Part shown: positions 41,385-64,000 of the stretch, in pieces
Layout of the letters: every line of letters starts with the position of its first letter
How positions within the stretch are numbered: the first letter of the stretch is position 1
Assembly (NCBI RefSeq): GCF_016907715.1
Contig: NZ_JAFBCM010000001.1
Coordinates: 1,116,001-1,180,000 of the forward strand
DNA: 64,000 nucleotides
From: Tenggerimyces flavus
Lineage (GTDB): Bacteria > Actinomycetota > Actinomycetes > Propionibacteriales > Actinopolymorphaceae
Reading direction: 5' to 3'
Notes under the pieces: generated by a model
Database searches by the model: none
What the model was told of the DNA's origin: nothing
What the model saw: only the letters and a program-made list of their open reading frames with translations
Translations under genes and position numbers: made by a program

Positions 41385-41957
41385 ATGACTGAGCCGTACA
41401 CCGTCCGCGCGCTCGACGCGTCGACCTGGGACGCCTTCGCGGAGCTGGTCGAGCGCAACGGCGGCGTCATGGGTGGCTGTTGGTGCCAGAACAACCACCG
41501 CCAACCCGGCCTCGACTCACCCGAGGCCAAGCGCGCGGCCAAGCAGGAACGGGTCCGCACCGACCGCGCCCACGCCGCGCTGGTCTTCGACGCGGACGGC
41601 CTCGCGCAGGGCTGGGCGCAGTACGGCAGCCCCGAGGAGCTCCCCGGGATGACCCACCGGCACGCGTACGAGCAGGACCCGCCGCCTCGAGCGGACTGGC
41701 GCATCATCTGTGTCTTCGTGGACAAGAAGCACCGCAGGCAGGGCATCGCGCGTGCCGCGGTCGAAGGGGCGGTGGAGCTGATCGCCGCGGCAGGTGGCGG
41801 CAGGATCGAGGCGATCTCGCAGGCGACGGCCGGGCGAGGCAGGGCGCCGTTCCTGTTCTCCGCGACGGTGGAGGTGTTCGAGCAGAACGGGTTCGAGCGC
41901 GTACGCCAGGTCGGCAAGCACTCCTGGATCCTCAGCCGGGTGCTCGACCCCGCCTGA
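41385..41957 (+). CDS. GNAT-family N-acetyltransferase (first paralogue)
   Basis: 190 residues. The acetyl-CoA motif is HRRQGIARAAVEGAVELI (~115-132). The N-terminus contains ASTWDAFAELVERNGGVMGG followed by CWC. It is clearly paralogous to the product of 54700-55269: the two share the ASTWDAFAELVERNGG and CWC motifs and the ending VRQVGKHxWIxSRVxDP. The substrate is unknown. It is 7 bases downstream of the MocR regulator and probably co-transcribed with it. Confidence 0.9.
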   Translation: MTEPYTVRALDASTWDAFAELVERNGGVMGGCWCQNNHRQPGLDSPEAKRAAKQERVRTDRAHAALVFDADGLAQGWAQYGSPEELPGMTHRHAYEQDPPPRADWRIICVFVDKKHRRQGIARAAVEGAVELIAAAGGGRIEAISQATAGRGRAPFLFSATVEVFEQNGFERVRQVGKHSWILSRVLDPA

Positions 41958-53824: not shown

Positions 53825-54703
53825 GTGGCTGACTACGGCCGCGACCTCTCGTTCGGCTACTTCCTGATCCCCAACGCCGACGACCCGCTGCTCGACACGG
53901 CGCGATCGTTGGAGGCGTTGGGGTTCGAGTACCTCGGCATCCAGGACCACCCGTACCAACGCAGGTACGTCGACACCTGGACGCTGCTCAGCTACCTCGC
54001 GGGCGCGACGTCGCGGATCCGGCTGTTCCCCGACGTCAGCAACCTCGCGCTGCGGCCGCCAGCCGTGCTCGCCAAGGCCGCGGCCAGCCTCGACCTGCTC
54101 AGCGGCGGCCGGTTCGACCTCGGCCTGGGTGCAGGCGGTTTCAACGAGGCCGTCCAGGCGTACGGCGGTCCGGCCCGGTCGCCGCGGGAGTCGTACGAGG
54201 CGCTCGAGGAAGCGATCAAGGTCATCCGGCTGATCTGGAGCGGCGAGCGCAACCTCCGCTTCGCCGGCAAGCACTACTCGCTGGCCGGCGCGATGTCCGG
54301 CCCCGTTCCGACCCGTCCGATCGGCATCTGGCTCGGCGTGTACGGGCCACGAGCGGTCCGGTTGGCCGGCCGCGTTGCCGACGGCTGGGTGCCCTCGCTG
54401 CAGCGGAACGCCGAGAAGCTGGCGGGCCTCGCCACGATCCTCGACGAGTCGGCGGTGGAGGCCGGCCGTTCGCCCCGCGACATCCGCCGGGTGTTGAACG
54501 TGAACGGCCAGATCACCTCGGGCAAGTCCGACGGCCTGCTGCACGGCCCGGTGAGCCAGTGGGTCGACGAGCTGACCGACCTCGCGGTCGGCCTCGGCTT
54601 CGACACGTTCCTGCTCTGGGCCGACGGCGAAGGCCAACCCCAACGCTTCGTCGACGAGATCATCCCCGCCGTCCGCGACCAGGTCGCGAAAGAGCGCTCC
54701 TAG
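53825..54703 (+). CDS. LLM-class flavin-dependent oxidoreductase
   Basis: 292 residues, luciferase-like TIM barrel. Features are GFEYLGIQDHPYQRRYVDTW, SGGRFDLGLGAGGFNEAV and RPIGIWLGVYGPRAVRLAGR. F420- or FMN-dependent enzymes both look like this, so the cofactor is undecided. The GTG at 53825 is chosen because it opens the domain and has an AAGAAGG site. It ends by overlapping the convergent GNAT gene by 4 bases and is probably in the YafY-peroxidase operon. Confidence 0.9.
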   Translation: MADYGRDLSFGYFLIPNADDPLLDTARSLEALGFEYLGIQDHPYQRRYVDTWTLLSYLAGATSRIRLFPDVSNLALRPPAVLAKAAASLDLLSGGRFDLGLGAGGFNEAVQAYGGPARSPRESYEALEEAIKVIRLIWSGERNLRFAGKHYSLAGAMSGPVPTRPIGIWLGVYGPRAVRLAGRVADGWVPSLQRNAEKLAGLATILDESAVEAGRSPRDIRRVLNVNGQITSGKSDGLLHGPVSQWVDELTDLAVGLGFDTFLLWADGEGQPQRFVDEIIPAVRDQVAKERS

Positions 54704-55269
54704 CTGTACGGATCCACGACACGGCTGACGATCCAGGCGTGCTTGCCGACCTGGCGGACCCGTTCGAAGCCGAAGTCCTCGAACAGCTCGACCGTCGCCG
54801 AGAAGAGGAACCGGCCCTGCGCCGAGCGGCCGGCGGTCACCTCGGGGATGGACTCGACCAGGCCTCCGCCCGCTTCCGCGATCTGGTCCAGAGCTCCCTC
54901 GAGGGCGGCCCGGGCGATGCCCTGCTTACGGTGGCGCTTGTCGACGTAGAAGCACCCGATCCGCCAGTCCGGCACCGGCGGCGGGTCCTCTTCGTACGCC
55001 CGGCGGTGACCGACGGACGCCTGTTCCTCCAGGTTCCCGTACCGAGCCCACCCCTGCGCGACCCCGTCGGAATCGAAGACGAGCGCGGCATGGGCGCGAC
55101 CCGAACGGACCCGCGCCTCTTTCGCGGCACGCTTGTCCAGTCCGGGGACCCAGGCCTCCGGATGGCCGCTCATGCACCAGCAGCCACCGAAGATGCCGCC
55201 GTTGCGCTCGACCAACTCGGCGAACGCGTCCCACGTCGACGCGTCGAGCGGGCGAACCGTGTAGGTCAT
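54700..55269 (-). CDS. GNAT-family N-acetyltransferase (second paralogue)
   Basis: 189 residues from the ATG at 55269, which has a GGGAGGAC site; the upstream open frame is probably not translated. The acetyl-CoA motif is HRKQGIARAALEGALDQI. The protein shares its N-terminus (VRPLDASTWDAFAELVERNG), the CWC motif and its C-terminus (VRQVGKHAWIVSRVVDP) with the 41385-41957 protein. The substrate is unknown. Both copies sit in unrelated neighbourhoods, so duplication is likely. Confidence 0.9.
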   Translation of the reverse strand: MTYTVRPLDASTWDAFAELVERNGGIFGGCWCMSGHPEAWVPGLDKRAAKEARVRSGRAHAALVFDSDGVAQGWARYGNLEEQASVGHRRAYEEDPPPVPDWRIGCFYVDKRHRKQGIARAALEGALDQIAEAGGGLVESIPEVTAGRSAQGRFLFSATVELFEDFGFERVRQVGKHAWIVSRVVDPYS

Positions 55270-55343
55270 GTCGTCCTCCCTCGGCCTAGCCTCGATCTTT
55301 CGTCCGGCGGTGGGTTCGACCGGCCCGTCCCCGCCCGCCCTGG

Positions 55344-55375
55344 GGCCAATGATCATGTTTGCATGATCATTGGCC
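55344..55375. repeat. 14-bp perfect inverted repeat with TGATCATG core
   Basis: GGCCAATGATCATG at 55344-55357 and its exact complement at 55362-55375 flank a 4-base loop. It lies upstream of the GNAT gene and downstream of the GntR gene, so it could terminate the latter's transcripts, although no T-tract follows in that direction. The AT-rich ATGATCATG core is also in the repeat at 31349-31423. Confidence 0.7.
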
Positions 55376-57742: not shown

Positions 57743-57792
57743 CCTTGGTTCGCGCCGCGTACGGCGGCAAACGATGCGAAGGATTTCGAAGC

Positions 57793-58833
57793 GTGTTCCG
57801 GATCCGGCTCGACGCCGAACAGCTGACGAGGACGCGGTTCGCCGTGTCCCCGCTGGTGCACGCGATGTCGAGCCTGATGGCGGTCGTCGTCCCTTCGCGC
57901 CTCCCGGACGCGGGACCGTGGGTCCGTACGGCGCGGCAACGGCTCGCCAAGGTCGACCTCGGCGACGACTTCACCCTCCTGCGGGAGCTGGTCGACCGGA
58001 AGTCCTGGTACATCCCGGACTTCCTGTACCCGATCCCCGCGACCGCCGCCCCGACCATCGACGAGGAACTCGCCACCGTCGCCACGGCCTGCCCCGAACG
58101 GATCGCGTTCGAGCTCAACCTCGCGTTCGACGGCGACCCGGTACGGACGAGGGCCATCGCCACCGAAGCCGTCGACAAGCTGCGCCGCCCGATGCCCGAG
58201 CCGATCGCGAAGGCACTGCGCGACGGCGAGGCCGCGTTCGCCGAGCGGCTTGCCGCGGTGCTCGAGCAGTACTGGACGATCGCGCTCGCGCCGGACTGGC
58301 AACTGATCAAGACCGTGCTCGAAGAGGACCTGCTCGTCCGCGGCCGCAGCCTCGCCACCGAGGGAGCGGCCAAGCTCTTCGCCGACCTCCACCAAGCGCT
58401 GCGCTGGGACGGCGAGGTGCTCACACTCGAGTCGCCGCACGAGGTCGACCTCACCGCGAACGCGAACGGCCTCGTGCTCGCGCCCTGCGTGTTCACCGAG
58501 GCGCGACCGTTCTGCCTGATCGAGTCGCTGGACCGGGTGATGCTCGGCTACCGCGCCCGTGGCAGCGCGAAGGTCTGGAACGCCGAAACGCCAACAGAAC
58601 AACCGAAAACGAGCCTGATCGGCGGCAGGCGCACCCAGCTCCTCGAGGATCTCGACGTGCCCCGCGCCGCAAGCCATCTCGCCGCGAGACAGCTCCTCGC
58701 GCCACCCACCGTCTCGTACCACCTCGGCCTCCTCCACCGCGCTGGCCTGGTACGTCGCCGACGTGTGGGTAAGCAGATCTTCTACGAGCGAACCCCAGCC
58801 GCCGAAACGCTGTTGGGCCTCGCCGGAATCTGA
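57793..58833 (+). CDS. ArsR-family regulator with N-terminal DUF5937 domain
   Basis: 346 residues from the GTG at 57793 (VFRIRLDAEQLTRTRFAVSP), where family members begin; the frame is open to 57745. The C-terminal winged helix is AARQLLAPPTVSYHLGLLHR followed by AGLVRRRRVGKQIFYERTP. The N-terminal ~250 residues are the DUF5937-type domain seen in actinobacterial ArsR proteins. It is divergent from the aminopeptidase gene and may control it. No operator was identified in the 50-base gap. Confidence 0.87.
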   Translation: MFRIRLDAEQLTRTRFAVSPLVHAMSSLMAVVVPSRLPDAGPWVRTARQRLAKVDLGDDFTLLRELVDRKSWYIPDFLYPIPATAAPTIDEELATVATACPERIAFELNLAFDGDPVRTRAIATEAVDKLRRPMPEPIAKALRDGEAAFAERLAAVLEQYWTIALAPDWQLIKTVLEEDLLVRGRSLATEGAAKLFADLHQALRWDGEVLTLESPHEVDLTANANGLVLAPCVFTEARPFCLIESLDRVMLGYRARGSAKVWNAETPTEQPKTSLIGGRRTQLLEDLDVPRAASHLAARQLLAPPTVSYHLGLLHRAGLVRRRRVGKQIFYERTPAAETLLGLAGI

Positions 58834-58907
58834 CCCCAACCACTTCGCGCGAACCCCCGACCACGCGCGCGCCGATCTGCTATTCCTGTTCGGCAGAGGG
58901 GGATCGC

Positions 58908-61900
58908 ATGAGTCTTTGGGACGATCTGCCTTCGTCGCTCAAGCAGGGTGGAACTCTCGACAACCTCGAGCCCGTGCTCGACAGCGTCGACACCCCCACC
59001 GAGGAGACGCGGACAGAAGACGACGGATTCACCTGGCGTGTCTGGAAGACCCGAGCAGGTGGGGACAAACCGCTCAGCGTCGACCTCGGCAGCGGCAAGA
59101 CCAGCCGCTCGGACAGCCTCAACACCGGCACGCCGTTGGTGTTTCCCCAACCGGACATAGACATCGAGCTCGGTCTGCGGCTCACCGGTCCGGGCGGCGA
59201 TCCGGACGGCACCGTACGGCTGGTCCTCGACACCCCTAACGCGATCGTCCGGCTCCCCTTCCTGCGCGGCGCGAAGCTCGACGCGCAGGGGCAGCTCAGA
59301 CCAGATCCGAACAACGTGAACGTCCGGTTCCATCTCCCCGCGATCAAGCTCCAGCTGCTGCGACCGGCGGCAGGCGGGTTCGAGCCCAAACTGCTCAGCA
59401 GCACGCTCGACAACCATCCGCCGCAGGACCAGATCTTCGACTTCATCCGGATGGAGCCGCCGCACGCGATCATCGGTCCCGGGAACGTCGTCGGCTTCGC
59501 GTTCCGCAGCGCCACGCTCGACCTGACCGGCGACGCCGGACCCGCCGGGGTTCCGGCGAACGCACGGACCCAACCCGACGCCTGGCAGGGCTTCTACCTG
59601 CCCGAGGTCCGGCTGTTCGTCGCACCCGAAGGCCTCGAAGGACTCGCCGCCAGCGCCGGGGTAAGAGACCTGTGGGTCGGCATCGGCCAGCACGAGGGCG
59701 TCACCGGACTCTTCGAGGCCGAGGTCGTCAACCGCGGCACGAACCCGACGGTGCGGCTCGCGTTCCAGGGACCCGCCGGCGAGTGGTACCCGGTCGCGGA
59801 CAACGCCAACACGAACGCCGTCGTCGAGCTCCCGGACAGCGCGACGCTCTACATCACGGCAGGCGGTGGCCTCGCGCCGTACACGTACCGCGTACTGGTG
59901 AACAACGCCGACCCGACGACGCTCGACCGGCGCACGATCCTCGTCCCCGATACCGGCGAGCTGACGCTGAGCATCGAGGTCACCGACGCCGGCCTGCACA
60001 CCCAGCCGCGCGGCATCAAGGTCAAGAAGCGCGCCAGCACCGGAGGTACGCCCACCCCGCCCGGCGAGAACGAGGTCAAGCCGCGGACCACGAGCACCAC
60101 CGGCCACCGGGTCGTCGTCTCGGCACCGGTCGGCCTCACCGTCACGGTGTCGCTCACCCCGGACGACGGCGGCGACCTCGCCTGGTCCTGGCCGGGCGGC
60201 TCGGCCACCGGCAAGACCGCGCAGATCCCGGTCGCCGCCGGCGCGACCGTGCAGGTGACAGCCACGCGGACGGTCACGCCCGCGGCGGTCGAGCCGTTCA
60301 GCCTCTACACGCTGTTCGAACGTCCCAAGGCCTCGGAGTTCCAGCCCGGCGGACCTACCGCCTGGGCGGACAACCTGACGAACCACGCGACAGTGCAGGC
60401 GTCGTCGAAGACCGGCTGGGGCAGCGCCGAACGGTTCCTCAGCGACGAGTCGAAGGCCCGGCTCGCCCAGCTCCCCGCGGCCACGCCGCTCACCGTCGAG
60501 GGCTTCGCGTCGTACGAGAACAAGAACGACGAAGGGACGATCGCGTACAACCTCGCCCTCAGTGAGCGCCGCCGCGACGTCCTCGTCTACCTGTTGAAGG
60601 AGACGTTCGGCTTCACGAACGTCACCCCCGGCACCGCGCACGGACATGGGCCCGCCCGTGCCGGCGGCACCGGCGTGCCAGCAGCCACCTCGCCGAAGTG
60701 GTGGCGCGCGACCGCCACCCCCGGACTCGCGAACCCGATCACCGAGACGATCACCGCCGAGCTGACGAGACCGCCCGCGACCTCGACCGAGGTCGACCCG
60801 GAGCCCACCCGCCCGCTCGTCCCGGACTGCTTCCGCAAGCTCGGCGTAAGAGTCGAGCTGATCCGCGGCACGTTCGTCCGCGCCGAGGTGTACGGCGAGT
60901 TCGACGTACGTACGGCCGCCGAGGCACGCCTGGACAAGCTCACCAACGACGAGCTCCCCGCGCGGACGAACCCCAGCGACGGCATCTGCACGTTCCTCGT
61001 CCGCTTCCGCATCGCCGAGGACCGCTCGTCCTGGCTGACCTCGGCGGAGTTCCGCGCGATCGAAGGCGACCTGGACGGCCTCGCCAAGGTCGAGTCGTCG
61101 ACCGGCAGCACCGCGCTCGACATCCTCGGCGCGGTCACCGCGCTCGCACCGCTGCTCGCCGCCTCCGCGCCACCGAGCCCGACCGCCGGCGAGCTCGTCC
61201 CGCTCGCGCTCGTCGGCGCCAGCGCGATCGCGCTCGGTGCCAGTGACAAGTTCACGACCAAGCACGTCATCCTGCGCGGCGGCGAGCTGGTCGTCAGCGA
61301 CGGCATCGTCGACCCGGTCACCGGCAGCGGACCGACGACGACGCGGGTCAGCATCCTGCTCGATCTGGAGACCGCGTTCTCGTTCGACCTCGGCATCATC
61401 AAGGTCGACCCCGCACACCCGATCCTCACGCGCTACAAGGCCGTAGGCATCCGGAGCACCTGGGACGCCGAGCCCGATCCGGGCGGTGAGCTGGAGTACA
61501 TCCCGCTGCCGGTCTTCGACCCCAGCCGCGGGTACACGCTCGACATCCCCGCCGGGTCGCTGCTCGCCGCGCCGCCGCTCGACTCGTTCCTGCGCGTGCT
61601 CGGCATCAAGGCGAGCCGGCTCAACCCCGCGTTCCTGGAGGTCGAGGTCGGTCTCGGCGTCGACCTCGGCGTCGTCACCGTCGACACCGCGCGGGTACGG
61701 TTCCGCCTCGACCCGCCGCCGAACAGCCTCGAGCTCACCAAGCTCAGCGCCACCCTCGACATCCCCGGCGCGATCCACGGCACCGGCTACCTGGAGATCA
61801 CCGACCTCGGTTTCAAGGGCGCGTTCGACATCACGCTCCCGTCGGTCGGCATCCGCGCGTACGCGACGCTCGCGCTGGAACAGCAGAACGGGACGACCGG

Positions 61901-64000
61901 ACTGCTCGTCGGTGCCGGTGTCGAGTTCCCCGTTCCGCTGCCGCTCGGCAACTCCGGGCTCGGCATCTTCGGCTTCCTCGGCGGCGTCGGCACCAACTAC
62001 AGAAGGAACGAGCCGACTGGCGTGCAGGCGCCCGCGCTGAAGTGGCTCGAGTCGCAGATGACGCCCGAGCGCGGGTTCAACGTCATGCACCCCGCCGGCT
62101 GGCAGCTCGAGCCCGGCAGCTTCGCGATCGCCGCCGGCCTGCTGCTCGGCACCGCCGAGGGCGGGTTCCTCCTGCACCTGAAGGGGATCGTGCTCGTCGA
62201 GCTGCCCGGACCTCGGCTGATGCTGATGATGAAGGCCGACGTGCTGAAGCTGCCGCCGGTGCTCGAGTCGCAGAGCAGCGCGACGTTCCTCGCCGTGCTC
62301 GACCTCGACTTCGGCCGCGGCACGATCACGATCGGCATCGTCGCCGAGTACAACGTCGTGGACTTGCTGAAGATCCGCGTGCCGGTGACCGCGTTCTTCG
62401 ACCTGAACCAGTCGCGGAACTGGTTCATCGACCTCGGCACGTACACCGAGCCCGTCACGGTCTCGGTGCTGGACGTCTTCCGCGGCACCGGCTACCTGAT
62501 GATCCACGGCGACGGCACGACGCTCTCGATCCCCGGGCTGCCGATCGCGACGAACGGGCTCGCGATCGCCGTCGGCTTCCACCTGCAGGCCGTGCTGATG
62601 GGCAGCAAGTCCATCGGCCTGTACTTCGAGGTCGCGGCCGGGTTCGACGCGCTGGTGTCGTTCGACCCGTACGCGATCGGCGGGCGGATCTACGCCCGAG
62701 GCGAGCTGCGGCTCTGGGTGGTCAGCGTCTCGGCGAGCGCGGAGCTCACCGTCCTGGTCGGCCGGCAGCTCGAGCCGGACGGCACGGTCGTGGACAAGAC
62801 GTACATCCACGGCGAGGTGTGCGGCAGCGTCGACCTGTTCTTCTTCGAGATCGAGGGCTGCATCGAGCTGACGATCGGGGAGAGCGAGCCGCCCGATCCC
62901 GTCGCGCCGGACCTGGTCGCCGGGGTGAAGCTGGTGAGCCGTTCGCCCGCGCTGGTCGAGGGCAGCGCGACCGACCGTGCCGTGGACGGCACGCTCGCCG
63001 ACGCCGTCGCGCAGGGATCGAGCGAGGCCCCGCCGACCGTTCCGCTGGACGCGGTGCCCGTCGTCATGTTCGAGGTGCCGCCGATGGTCCAGGCGGGCAA
63101 CATCGTGCTCGGTGGCGAGGCCCGAGGCACGTCCGGCGTCGGCGCCGACCCGTGGGTACGGCAGGGCGACAAGTGGTGGCGGTATCAGGTCACCAAGGTC
63201 GAGCTCGTCGGCGACCTGCAGCCGCCACCGCCCACCGGGAAGACGCCCGCGACCTGGTGGCCGCGGAACGCGCCGGGCCAGTCCCAGCTCGGTCCCGCGC
63301 TCGCGTTGCTGTCCTGGCTCCCGACACCGACGCCGCGCGCGGTCCCGTACGGAGAGAGCCTCACCACCACCGTGCACGAGCAGTGGGGACACATCTGCGG
63401 ACCGGTCGCGCCTGCCGCGTACGTGCTGTGGACGTTCGACGACAAGCCCACCGGACCGAGCCGGATCGGCTGGACCCTCGCCGGCGTGCCCTGGCCAGAC
63501 GGCCCCGGAGACTTCCGGAGTACGCCGGTCGACGCGAAGCTCGTCGTCACTGAACCCTGGCGGACCGGCAACGCGCTCGCCGACGCCTTGCAGGGGACCG
63601 ATCCCGCCATCGTGGTCGGCGACGCGGTGCGTTGCCCGGACGGCGAGATCACCCACGTCGACTCGTTGCAGGAGTGGGCGAACGGCAACCCCACCTCGTT
63701 CAGCAACGCCGCGATGCCGACCAGCGGTGGCGCTTTGCAGGATGTGGTCGACCTGCTGGCCACCGGGACCTCGCTCGCCGACGTCGCGTCGGAGTGGGTC
63801 GACACGGCGTGGGATCCCGACCTGTCCAACCTGCCGCTGAGCTGTCAGGGCCGGATCCTGCGTTCCCCGACGGGCGATCTGCCCGAGCCCGCACCCGACG
63901 CTCCCGAGGAAGAACGCGAGATCGTCAAGCAGGTCTGGGACAAGACCGGCTTCAAGCCCGCCGAGCTCGGCAACGCCGTACGCCTGGACCTCGACGGTGG
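58908..64000 (+). CDS. Giant protein with OmpA-like domain, 3' end beyond window
   Basis: 1,697 codons are in the window and the frame is still open at the edge. The protein starts MSLWDDLPSSLKQGGTLDNL after an AGAGGGGG site and has no signal peptide. Residues ~1-480 are beta-rich, with a part around FEAEVVNRGTNPTVRLAFQG resembling immunoglobulin-like folds. Residues ~490-605 look like an OmpA-type peptidoglycan-binding domain (VEGFASYENKN, YNLALSERRRDVLVYLL). A long repetitive beta region follows (DIPGAIHGTGYLEITDLGFK, GLGIFGFLGGVGTNY), possibly DUF6603-like; this assignment is weak. It may be a surface or filament protein. Confidence 0.7.
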   Translation, partial: MSLWDDLPSSLKQGGTLDNLEPVLDSVDTPTEETRTEDDGFTWRVWKTRAGGDKPLSVDLGSGKTSRSDSLNTGTPLVFPQPDIDIELGLRLTGPGGDPDGTVRLVLDTPNAIVRLPFLRGAKLDAQGQLRPDPNNVNVRFHLPAIKLQLLRPAAGGFEPKLLSSTLDNHPPQDQIFDFIRMEPPHAIIGPGNVVGFAFRSATLDLTGDAGPAGVPANARTQPDAWQGFYLPEVRLFVAPEGLEGLAASAGVRDLWVGIGQHEGVTGLFEAEVVNRGTNPTVRLAFQGPAGEWYPVADNANTNAVVELPDSATLYITAGGGLAPYTYRVLVNNADPTTLDRRTILVPDTGELTLSIEVTDAGLHTQPRGIKVKKRASTGGTPTPPGENEVKPRTTSTTGHRVVVSAPVGLTVTVSLTPDDGGDLAWSWPGGSATGKTAQIPVAAGATVQVTATRTVTPAAVEPFSLYTLFERPKASEFQPGGPTAWADNLTNHATVQASSKTGWGSAERFLSDESKARLAQLPAATPLTVEGFASYENKNDEGTIAYNLALSERRRDVLVYLLKETFGFTNVTPGTAHGHGPARAGGTGVPAATSPKWWRATATPGLANPITETITAELTRPPATSTEVDPEPTRPLVPDCFRKLGVRVELIRGTFVRAEVYGEFDVRTAAEARLDKLTNDELPARTNPSDGICTFLVRFRIAEDRSSWLTSAEFRAIEGDLDGLAKVESSTGSTALDILGAVTALAPLLAASAPPSPTAGELVPLALVGASAIALGASDKFTTKHVILRGGELVVSDGIVDPVTGSGPTTTRVSILLDLETAFSFDLGIIKVDPAHPILTRYKAVGIRSTWDAEPDPGGELEYIPLPVFDPSRGYTLDIPAGSLLAAPPLDSFLRVLGIKASRLNPAFLEVEVGLGVDLGVVTVDTARVRFRLDPPPNSLELTKLSATLDIPGAIHGTGYLEITDLGFKGAFDITLPSVGIRAYATLALEQQNGTTGLLVGAGVEFPVPLPLGNSGLGIFGFLGGVGTNYRRNEPTGVQAPALKWLESQMTPERGFNVMHPAGWQLEPGSFAIAAGLLLGTAEGGFLLHLKGIVLVELPGPRLMLMMKADVLKLPPVLESQSSATFLAVLDLDFGRGTITIGIVAEYNVVDLLKIRVPVTAFFDLNQSRNWFIDLGTYTEPVTVSVLDVFRGTGYLMIHGDGTTLSIPGLPIATNGLAIAVGFHLQAVLMGSKSIGLYFEVAAGFDALVSFDPYAIGGRIYARGELRLWVVSVSASAELTVLVGRQLEPDGTVVDKTYIHGEVCGSVDLFFFEIEGCIELTIGESEPPDPVAPDLVAGVKLVSRSPALVEGSATDRAVDGTLADAVAQGSSEAPPTVPLDAVPVVMFEVPPMVQAGNIVLGGEARGTSGVGADPWVRQGDKWWRYQVTKVELVGDLQPPPPTGKTPATWWPRNAPGQSQLGPALALLSWLPTPTPRAVPYGESLTTTVHEQWGHICGPVAPAAYVLWTFDDKPTGPSRIGWTLAGVPWPDGPGDFRSTPVDAKLVVTEPWRTGNALADALQGTDPAIVVGDAVRCPDGEITHVDSLQEWANGNPTSFSNAAMPTSGGALQDVVDLLATGTSLADVASEWVDTAWDPDLSNLPLSCQGRILRSPTGDLPEPAPDAPEEEREIVKQVWDKTGFKPAELGNAVRLDLDG

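Follow-up and report, generated by a model that had tools for sequence, protein, structure and literature searches.

A mobile two-gene cassette encoding a giant DUF6603 protein with an internal OmpA-like domain in Tenggerimyces flavus and scattered other bacteria

Results

A giant gene and its overlapping partner

The window, a stretch of 64,000 nucleotides, comprises bases 1,116,001–1,180,000 of the 8.52 Mb single-contig genome of Tenggerimyces flavus. Gene 1 starts on the plus strand at an ATG at position 58908, directly downstream of a purine-rich stretch, and its frame holds no stop codon up to the window end at 64000. A preliminary description made from the window had reported a giant open-ended reading frame of at least 1,697 residues, possibly tied to a larger system beyond the window. 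In the genome, the frame ends at window-equivalent position 65693 and encodes 2,261 aa, and the suspected larger system turned out to be a conserved two-gene pair. Gene 2 (window-equivalent 65693–69280, plus strand, outside the window) encodes 1,195 aa, and its start overlaps the gene 1 stop by one base (TGATG), a junction that is again preceded by a purine-rich stretch. A terminator-like hairpin, defined by consensus match only, follows gene 2 at about 69344–69361 (one found versus 0.1 expected), and the gene 3′ of gene 2 was judged by eye to encode an iron-siderophore permease. Upstream of gene 1, the stretch 57745–58833 gave DUF5937 and helix-turn-helix matches, all under the Pfam cut-offs. 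Gene models for sequences without public annotation were produced by a codon-bias script written for this analysis.

Gene 1 is under purifying selection, with dN/dS values of 0.10–0.36 (6 of the 10 possible pairs among five genomes); gene 2 gave 0.11–0.36 (6 pairs, five genomes). The GC fractions at codon positions 1, 2 and 3 of gene 1 in the plus frame are 0.68, 0.51 and 0.92. A minus-strand reading frame at 58782–63656 (1,624–1,738 aa) was rejected as a gene and is regarded as a shadow of gene 1, because its GC at the three codon positions is the mirror image of that in the plus frame. Elsewhere in the window, two acetyltransferase-like paralogues (recognised by eye) at 41385–41957 (plus strand) and 54700–55356 (minus strand), 13 kb apart, are identical at 129 of 189 residues. 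At another place in the same genome, L063 (G000:C1 7,014,000–7,033,900), a sheath gene and its neighbours form a likely contractile injection locus.

Distribution of the pair

Besides the window genome, full-length pairs were found in Jiangella ureilytica, three Kribbella genomes (G447, G471 and G477, which are taken to be the genomes of loci L006–L008 and were counted once), Rhizobium tropici and Paracoccus aminophilus. Genes 1 and 2 were adjacent in all seven loci with a full-length large protein, and a check of the neighbours common to the homologues thus identified gene 2 as the constant partner of gene 1. The stop-start overlap was present in six of the seven pairs, as TGATG in the five actinobacteria and TAATG in Rhizobium, with a 1-base gap instead in Paracoccus. 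Identities to Jiangella ureilytica and the three Kribbella were about 73% for gene 1 and about 67–68% for gene 2. The Rhizobium tropici pair resides on a plasmid, shows 29% identity over 95% of gene 1, and has a further gene behind it that encodes 1,087 aa. In Paracoccus aminophilus the pair is also plasmid-borne; its gene 1 product has 2,554 aa and carries the annotation 'outer membrane protein', and its gene 2 product has 1,114 aa.

Within the order, the gene 1 core was present in 5 of 245 genomes, namely the window genome, the three Kribbella and a distant relative in G622. In the family of the window genome, gene 1 occurred in one of eight genomes, and in the genus set of 38 Kribbella genomes, apparently all within the 245, three carried the core. 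Gene 2 was likewise found in 5 of the 245, comprising four pairs and G618. In the last genome, L062:9122–9748 (minus strand) is a C-terminal gene 2 remnant whose match is interrupted by an internal stop, and gene 1 left no trace within 20 kb. A scan of 396 genomes of the phylum, with at most two candidates scored in each genome listed, matched the family core only in the window genome, and distant relatives may be missed by it. Gene 1 matches occurred in 2 of 72,556 plasmid records. An origin from a phage or prophage was rejected, since no homologue was found in 50,697 phage records, none was confirmed in three scans of viral contigs, and residues 1–1697 had no match in PHROGs.

Gene 2 had no match in Pfam or the PDB. 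PDB searches with profiles A2, A6 and A8 detected no relatives of gene 2, DUF6603 or its usual partners, and profile A7 returned just four weak, unrelated matches (E 0.18–0.78). An impression of fibronectin-like repeats, gained from the letters, found no support in Pfam and was dropped. The neighbour gene in G622 showed no detectable gene 2 homology; the comparison of gene 2 with the L048 neighbour gene reached just E 0.032 at 1.6% probability, with no detectable homology.

Presence and absence at one chromosomal site

The flanking permease and dehydrogenase matches were 10.9 kb apart in the three occupied Kribbella genomes, and about 0.38 kb apart at the empty sites of their near relatives G483, G456 and G433. 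Alignment placed the insert edges about 60–80 bases before the gene 1 ATG and no more than about 30 bases from the gene 2 stop; the insert is essentially genes 1 and 2 alone, and no integrase gene was found in it. A target-site duplication was sought and rejected, with no common word of 6–12 bases between the stretches compared. The flanks of the pair differ among Kribbella, Jiangella and the window genome. The pair is a cleanly bounded mobile cassette, and its presence in 3 of 38 Kribbella genomes, a count made without a tree, favours gain in the three over loss in the others. In G465 (L061), a different insert occupies the same Kribbella intergenic site with a flank gap of 4.4 kb, and the site may therefore be a small hot spot.

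A divergent OmpA-like domain within gene 1

An OmpA-like domain lies at residues about 460–620 of gene 1 (60285–60767, plus strand), identified by PDB profile searches and suggested by Foldseek with a low-confidence model. The Pfam OmpA family (PF00691) had no match in the gene 1 protein alone (E ≤ 10 for residues 1–1697, E ≤ 5 for the whole protein), and its matches were below the cut-off of 27.2 bits in the homologues from Rhizobium (18.8 bits, E 0.002) and, more weakly, Paracoccus (13.8 bits, E 0.079). Once homologues were included, the segment passed the profile search. With a whole-family profile of seven homologues, 14 of the 15 PDB matches at E ≤ 1 were OmpA-type and fell within residues 515–606, the best being OprF (E 1.3e-4). 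A seven-homologue profile of the segment yielded 23 OmpA-type matches out of 28 (best E 1.1e-4), counting chains 9v99 and 9v9b, which are named only outer membrane beta-barrel protein; the remaining five were four cephalosporin acylases and one translation protein. A small AlphaFold model of the segment (mean pLDDT 49) contained helices, a strand, a long helix and a strand. Among its best 50 Foldseek rows, the first 33 were OmpA-class, none at E ≤ 0.001, and included OmpA, OprF, Pal, PorE, YfiB, FopA, TssL/TagL and MotB; we take PorE to be OmpA-type and rows 19 and 22 ('bacterial signalling protein') to be OmpA-class. The domain, which the preliminary description had placed at residues ~490–605, is real but divergent, and none of the homologues found has a known function. 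The view that such a domain is unusual in Gram-positive bacteria did not hold, as the same genome has another one well above the Pfam cut-off, and 5 of 14 control genomes, Bacillus subtilis among them, contain Pfam OmpA domains.

In Acinetobacter OmpA, Asp271 and Arg286 are reported to be involved in binding DAP-peptidoglycan (PMC7901484). The candidate aspartate of gene 1, D541 (60528–60530, plus strand), is invariant in the five actinobacterial proteins and aligned with the canonical Asp in the HMMER alignment, a placement that depends on how the loop insertion is aligned. The Paracoccus homologue has an Asp in the matching loop, and the Rhizobium homologue has none there. The candidate arginine, R555 (60570–60572, plus strand), is invariant in all seven proteins and corresponds to Arg286 in each of them.

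The DUF6603 domain and its relatives

A DUF6603 domain, absent from the preliminary description, spans residues about 899–1330 (61602–62900, plus strand) and was found by both Pfam and profile-profile comparison. It is the sole family above the Pfam cut-off in gene 1; a sub-threshold DUF5979 match lies at residues 378–457 (E 0.17). The Pfam match (PF20248) at residues 899–1135 scored 48.4 bits against a curated cut-off of 27, its best stretch covering 14–247 of 502 model positions. A comparison by hhalign of the seven-homologue profile with nine ordinary DUF6603 domains matched residues about 942–1328 (E 2.3e-14) to columns 69–451 of 560, which is most of the domain. The DUF6603 domain of gene 1 is divergent. 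An AlphaFold model of residues 485–1345 reached a mean pLDDT of only 31, and a fold for the DUF6603 part was dropped.

The Pfam model detected DUF6603 in 12 of the 396 genomes of the phylum sample and in 19 plasmid records, with hosts including Streptomyces, Embleya, Nocardia, Paenibacillus, Rhizobium, Paraburkholderia and haloarchaea. Fourteen of the 19 plasmid records were opened, and all ten that were annotated in the stretch had further same-strand genes after DUF6603, the next gene encoding 357–1,709 aa. BLAST grouping of nine chromosomal DUF6603 loci revealed recurring second proteins, one type in five loci and another in three, and a recurring third protein in four. Gene 2 had no match to the profiles of these usual second and third proteins and was rejected as their relative.

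The distant relative in L048 (1,831 aa) lacks the OmpA domain; in its place, a gene close by encodes a PG_binding_1 domain. This domain was located in a panel of ten of the 12 DUF6603 genomes (without G351 and G369) plus G622 and G447, for which some genome sizes were rounded and some drafts had contigs ending near the gene. Three of the 12 genomes (G622, G295 and G268) had PG_binding_1 no more than 15 kb from the DUF6603-type gene, a distance picked after looking, where uniform placement predicts 0.43 (P 0.008); at 25 kb, with G200 added, four of 12 would have it, against 0.70 predicted (P 0.004). All three PG_binding_1 domains of G622 adjoin the DUF6603-type gene. In the other nine genomes, including the window genome and Kribbella G447, none was present within 15 kb. 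Two of the ten annotated plasmid records had a PG_binding_1 gene near DUF6603.

Two proteins near DUF6603-type genes of two genomes, L048:2406–3275 (minus strand) and L054:1282–2163 (plus strand), are homologous at 53% identity. Both have a C-terminal PG_binding_1-type part, matched by Pfam in the L048 protein, and an N-terminal part that looks by eye like a phage-type lysozyme. At L048:12914–13912 (minus strand), upstream of the gene 1 relative and on the same strand, an MvdD pre-ATP-grasp domain scored 28.5 bits against a Pfam cut-off of 27.

Export signals and hydrophobic stretches

A crude hydropathy test found no N-terminal hydrophobic signal in the gene 1 protein or its six homologues, which bears out the earlier remark on a missing signal peptide. 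The best 19-residue mean for starts at residues 1–25 was −0.17 in gene 1 and at most 0.26 in the homologues, the Rhizobium start being simply that of the longest reading frame. Ten DUF6603 proteins of other clusters also had no obvious export signal in this test (highest N-terminal value, 1.65). Neither a sortase-type motif nor a strong membrane segment was found that would place the gene 1 protein at the surface. Two hydrophobic stretches within residues 736–778 (61113–61241, plus strand; hydropathy peaks of 1.75 and 1.67) keep their position in the five actinobacterial proteins. The long beta-rich regions proposed earlier are plausible, and the gene 1 product may, as the same description suggested, be a structural or surface protein rather than an enzyme.

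Discussion

The best explanation, offered tentatively, is an assembly of two subunits that spreads by horizontal exchange and attaches to peptidoglycan. Genes 1 and 2 would encode two giant subunits that bind each other in one assembly and are co-made by translational coupling. The DUF6603 core and the long flanking regions of gene 1 would form the assembly body, and the internal OmpA-like domain would bind DAP-type peptidoglycan as a docking module. The cassette would be an accessory unit, exchanged horizontally as two genes. The complex would leave the cytoplasm through lysis or along a non-Sec route, which is proposed because neither protein shows a Sec signal, and would so reach the wall of its own cell or, once released, that of a neighbour. 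This explanation is favoured by the constant adjacency of the genes, the stop-start overlap in six of seven pairs, the OmpA domain found by profile searches and suggested by the fold search, the Arg kept throughout, the Asp of the five actinobacteria and Paracoccus, the PG_binding_1 genes near relatives and the empty sites. It is disfavoured by the failure of gene 2 to match Pfam or the PDB and by an L048 neighbour that is not detectably homologous to it. Against docking in particular stand the Rhizobium protein without the DAP-site Asp, the OmpA score under the Pfam cut-off, the nine of 12 genomes without PG_binding_1 within 15 kb and the DUF6603 clusters of haloarchaea. Haloarchaea are not known to have murein, and the DUF6603 family as a whole therefore cannot be directed at peptidoglycan. 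The main weakness of the explanation is the lack of an export signal.

That lack, common to the gene 1 proteins of all seven homologues and, by the same crude test, to the ten DUF6603 proteins of other clusters, would be accounted for by an intracellular assembly, such as a large scaffold or enclosure, in which the OmpA-like domain is now a protein-protein contact module. The divergence of the domain, its sub-threshold score and the missing Asp in Rhizobium fit this alternative too. However, the Arg is kept in seven of seven proteins and an Asp is present in six of seven, and some relatives have PG_binding_1 genes near the DUF6603-type gene; we consider the intracellular assembly rather unlikely.

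An unlikely alternative, ranked below it, is a factor that is either set free by lysis or injected into competing cells, whose peptidoglycan the OmpA domain would target. The patchy, mobile distribution is consistent with such a factor. According to PMC3482391, polymorphic and PVC-type (contractile-system) toxins can carry OmpA, PGB1 and LysM domains, and the Tenggerimyces flavus genome encodes a phage-type sheath whose neighbours look by eye like tube, PAAR and baseplate genes. Nevertheless, contig coordinates put the sheath gene 5.8 Mb from the pair, Pfam recognises no toxin domain, and the HExxH motif of the PVC metallopeptidase is absent from genes 1 and 2 and from gene 1 of the six homologues. 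Moreover, the OmpA domain is reported to be always C-terminal in those toxins, whereas here it occupies residues about 460–620 of 2,261. A very improbable alternative is a defence or other conflict island, with presence and absence set by phage or plasmid selection. It would suit the rare, patchy and cleanly gained or lost pair and the DUF6603 genes on plasmids, but Pfam detects no effector domain of the nuclease or kinase type or the like. Known anti-phage defence was rejected, as PADLOC had no match for P0001, P0002 or three proteins of other DUF6603 loci.

Beyond the peptidoglycan-docking assembly itself, a wider and doubtful conjecture is that DUF6603 clusters are a hitherto undescribed kind of machine, built of giant proteins without export signals, present in bacteria and haloarchaea and often located on plasmids; the pair of the window would then be a minimal form of it, with just two genes that move cleanly and bring their own peptidoglycan anchor. 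Proteins with DUF6603 come from actinobacteria, a Paenibacillus, proteobacteria and haloarchaea, yet no paper in the literature collection searched mentions DUF6603, PF20248 or a presumed InterPro number of the family. The two-gene relative, present or absent at one chromosomal site in close genomes, is a simple form for deletion and assay, and its embedded OmpA-like domain provides a testable first guess at the target.

Comparison with known systems

The OmpA-tipped PVC-type toxins, as described in PMC3482391, share with gene 1 an OmpA domain in a large protein and depend for delivery on a contractile system, not on Sec, so an OmpA domain need not mean Sec export; gene 1 differs in the non-C-terminal position of the domain, the absence of HExxH and the distance to injection genes. 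Compared with PF00691 proteins (Pal, OprF and OmpA), the segment is matched by profile search and tentatively by fold search and keeps the Arg of the DAP pair, but it scores under the Pfam cut-off, has extra residues in the Asp loop and is internal to a giant protein without a signal peptide. With ordinary DUF6603 clusters, the pair shares the core domain, further same-strand genes after it and the lack of an obvious export signal. In contrast to them, it consists of two genes only and lacks the giant proteins that usually come second and third, and its divergent DUF6603 domain has an OmpA-like domain fused into the same protein.
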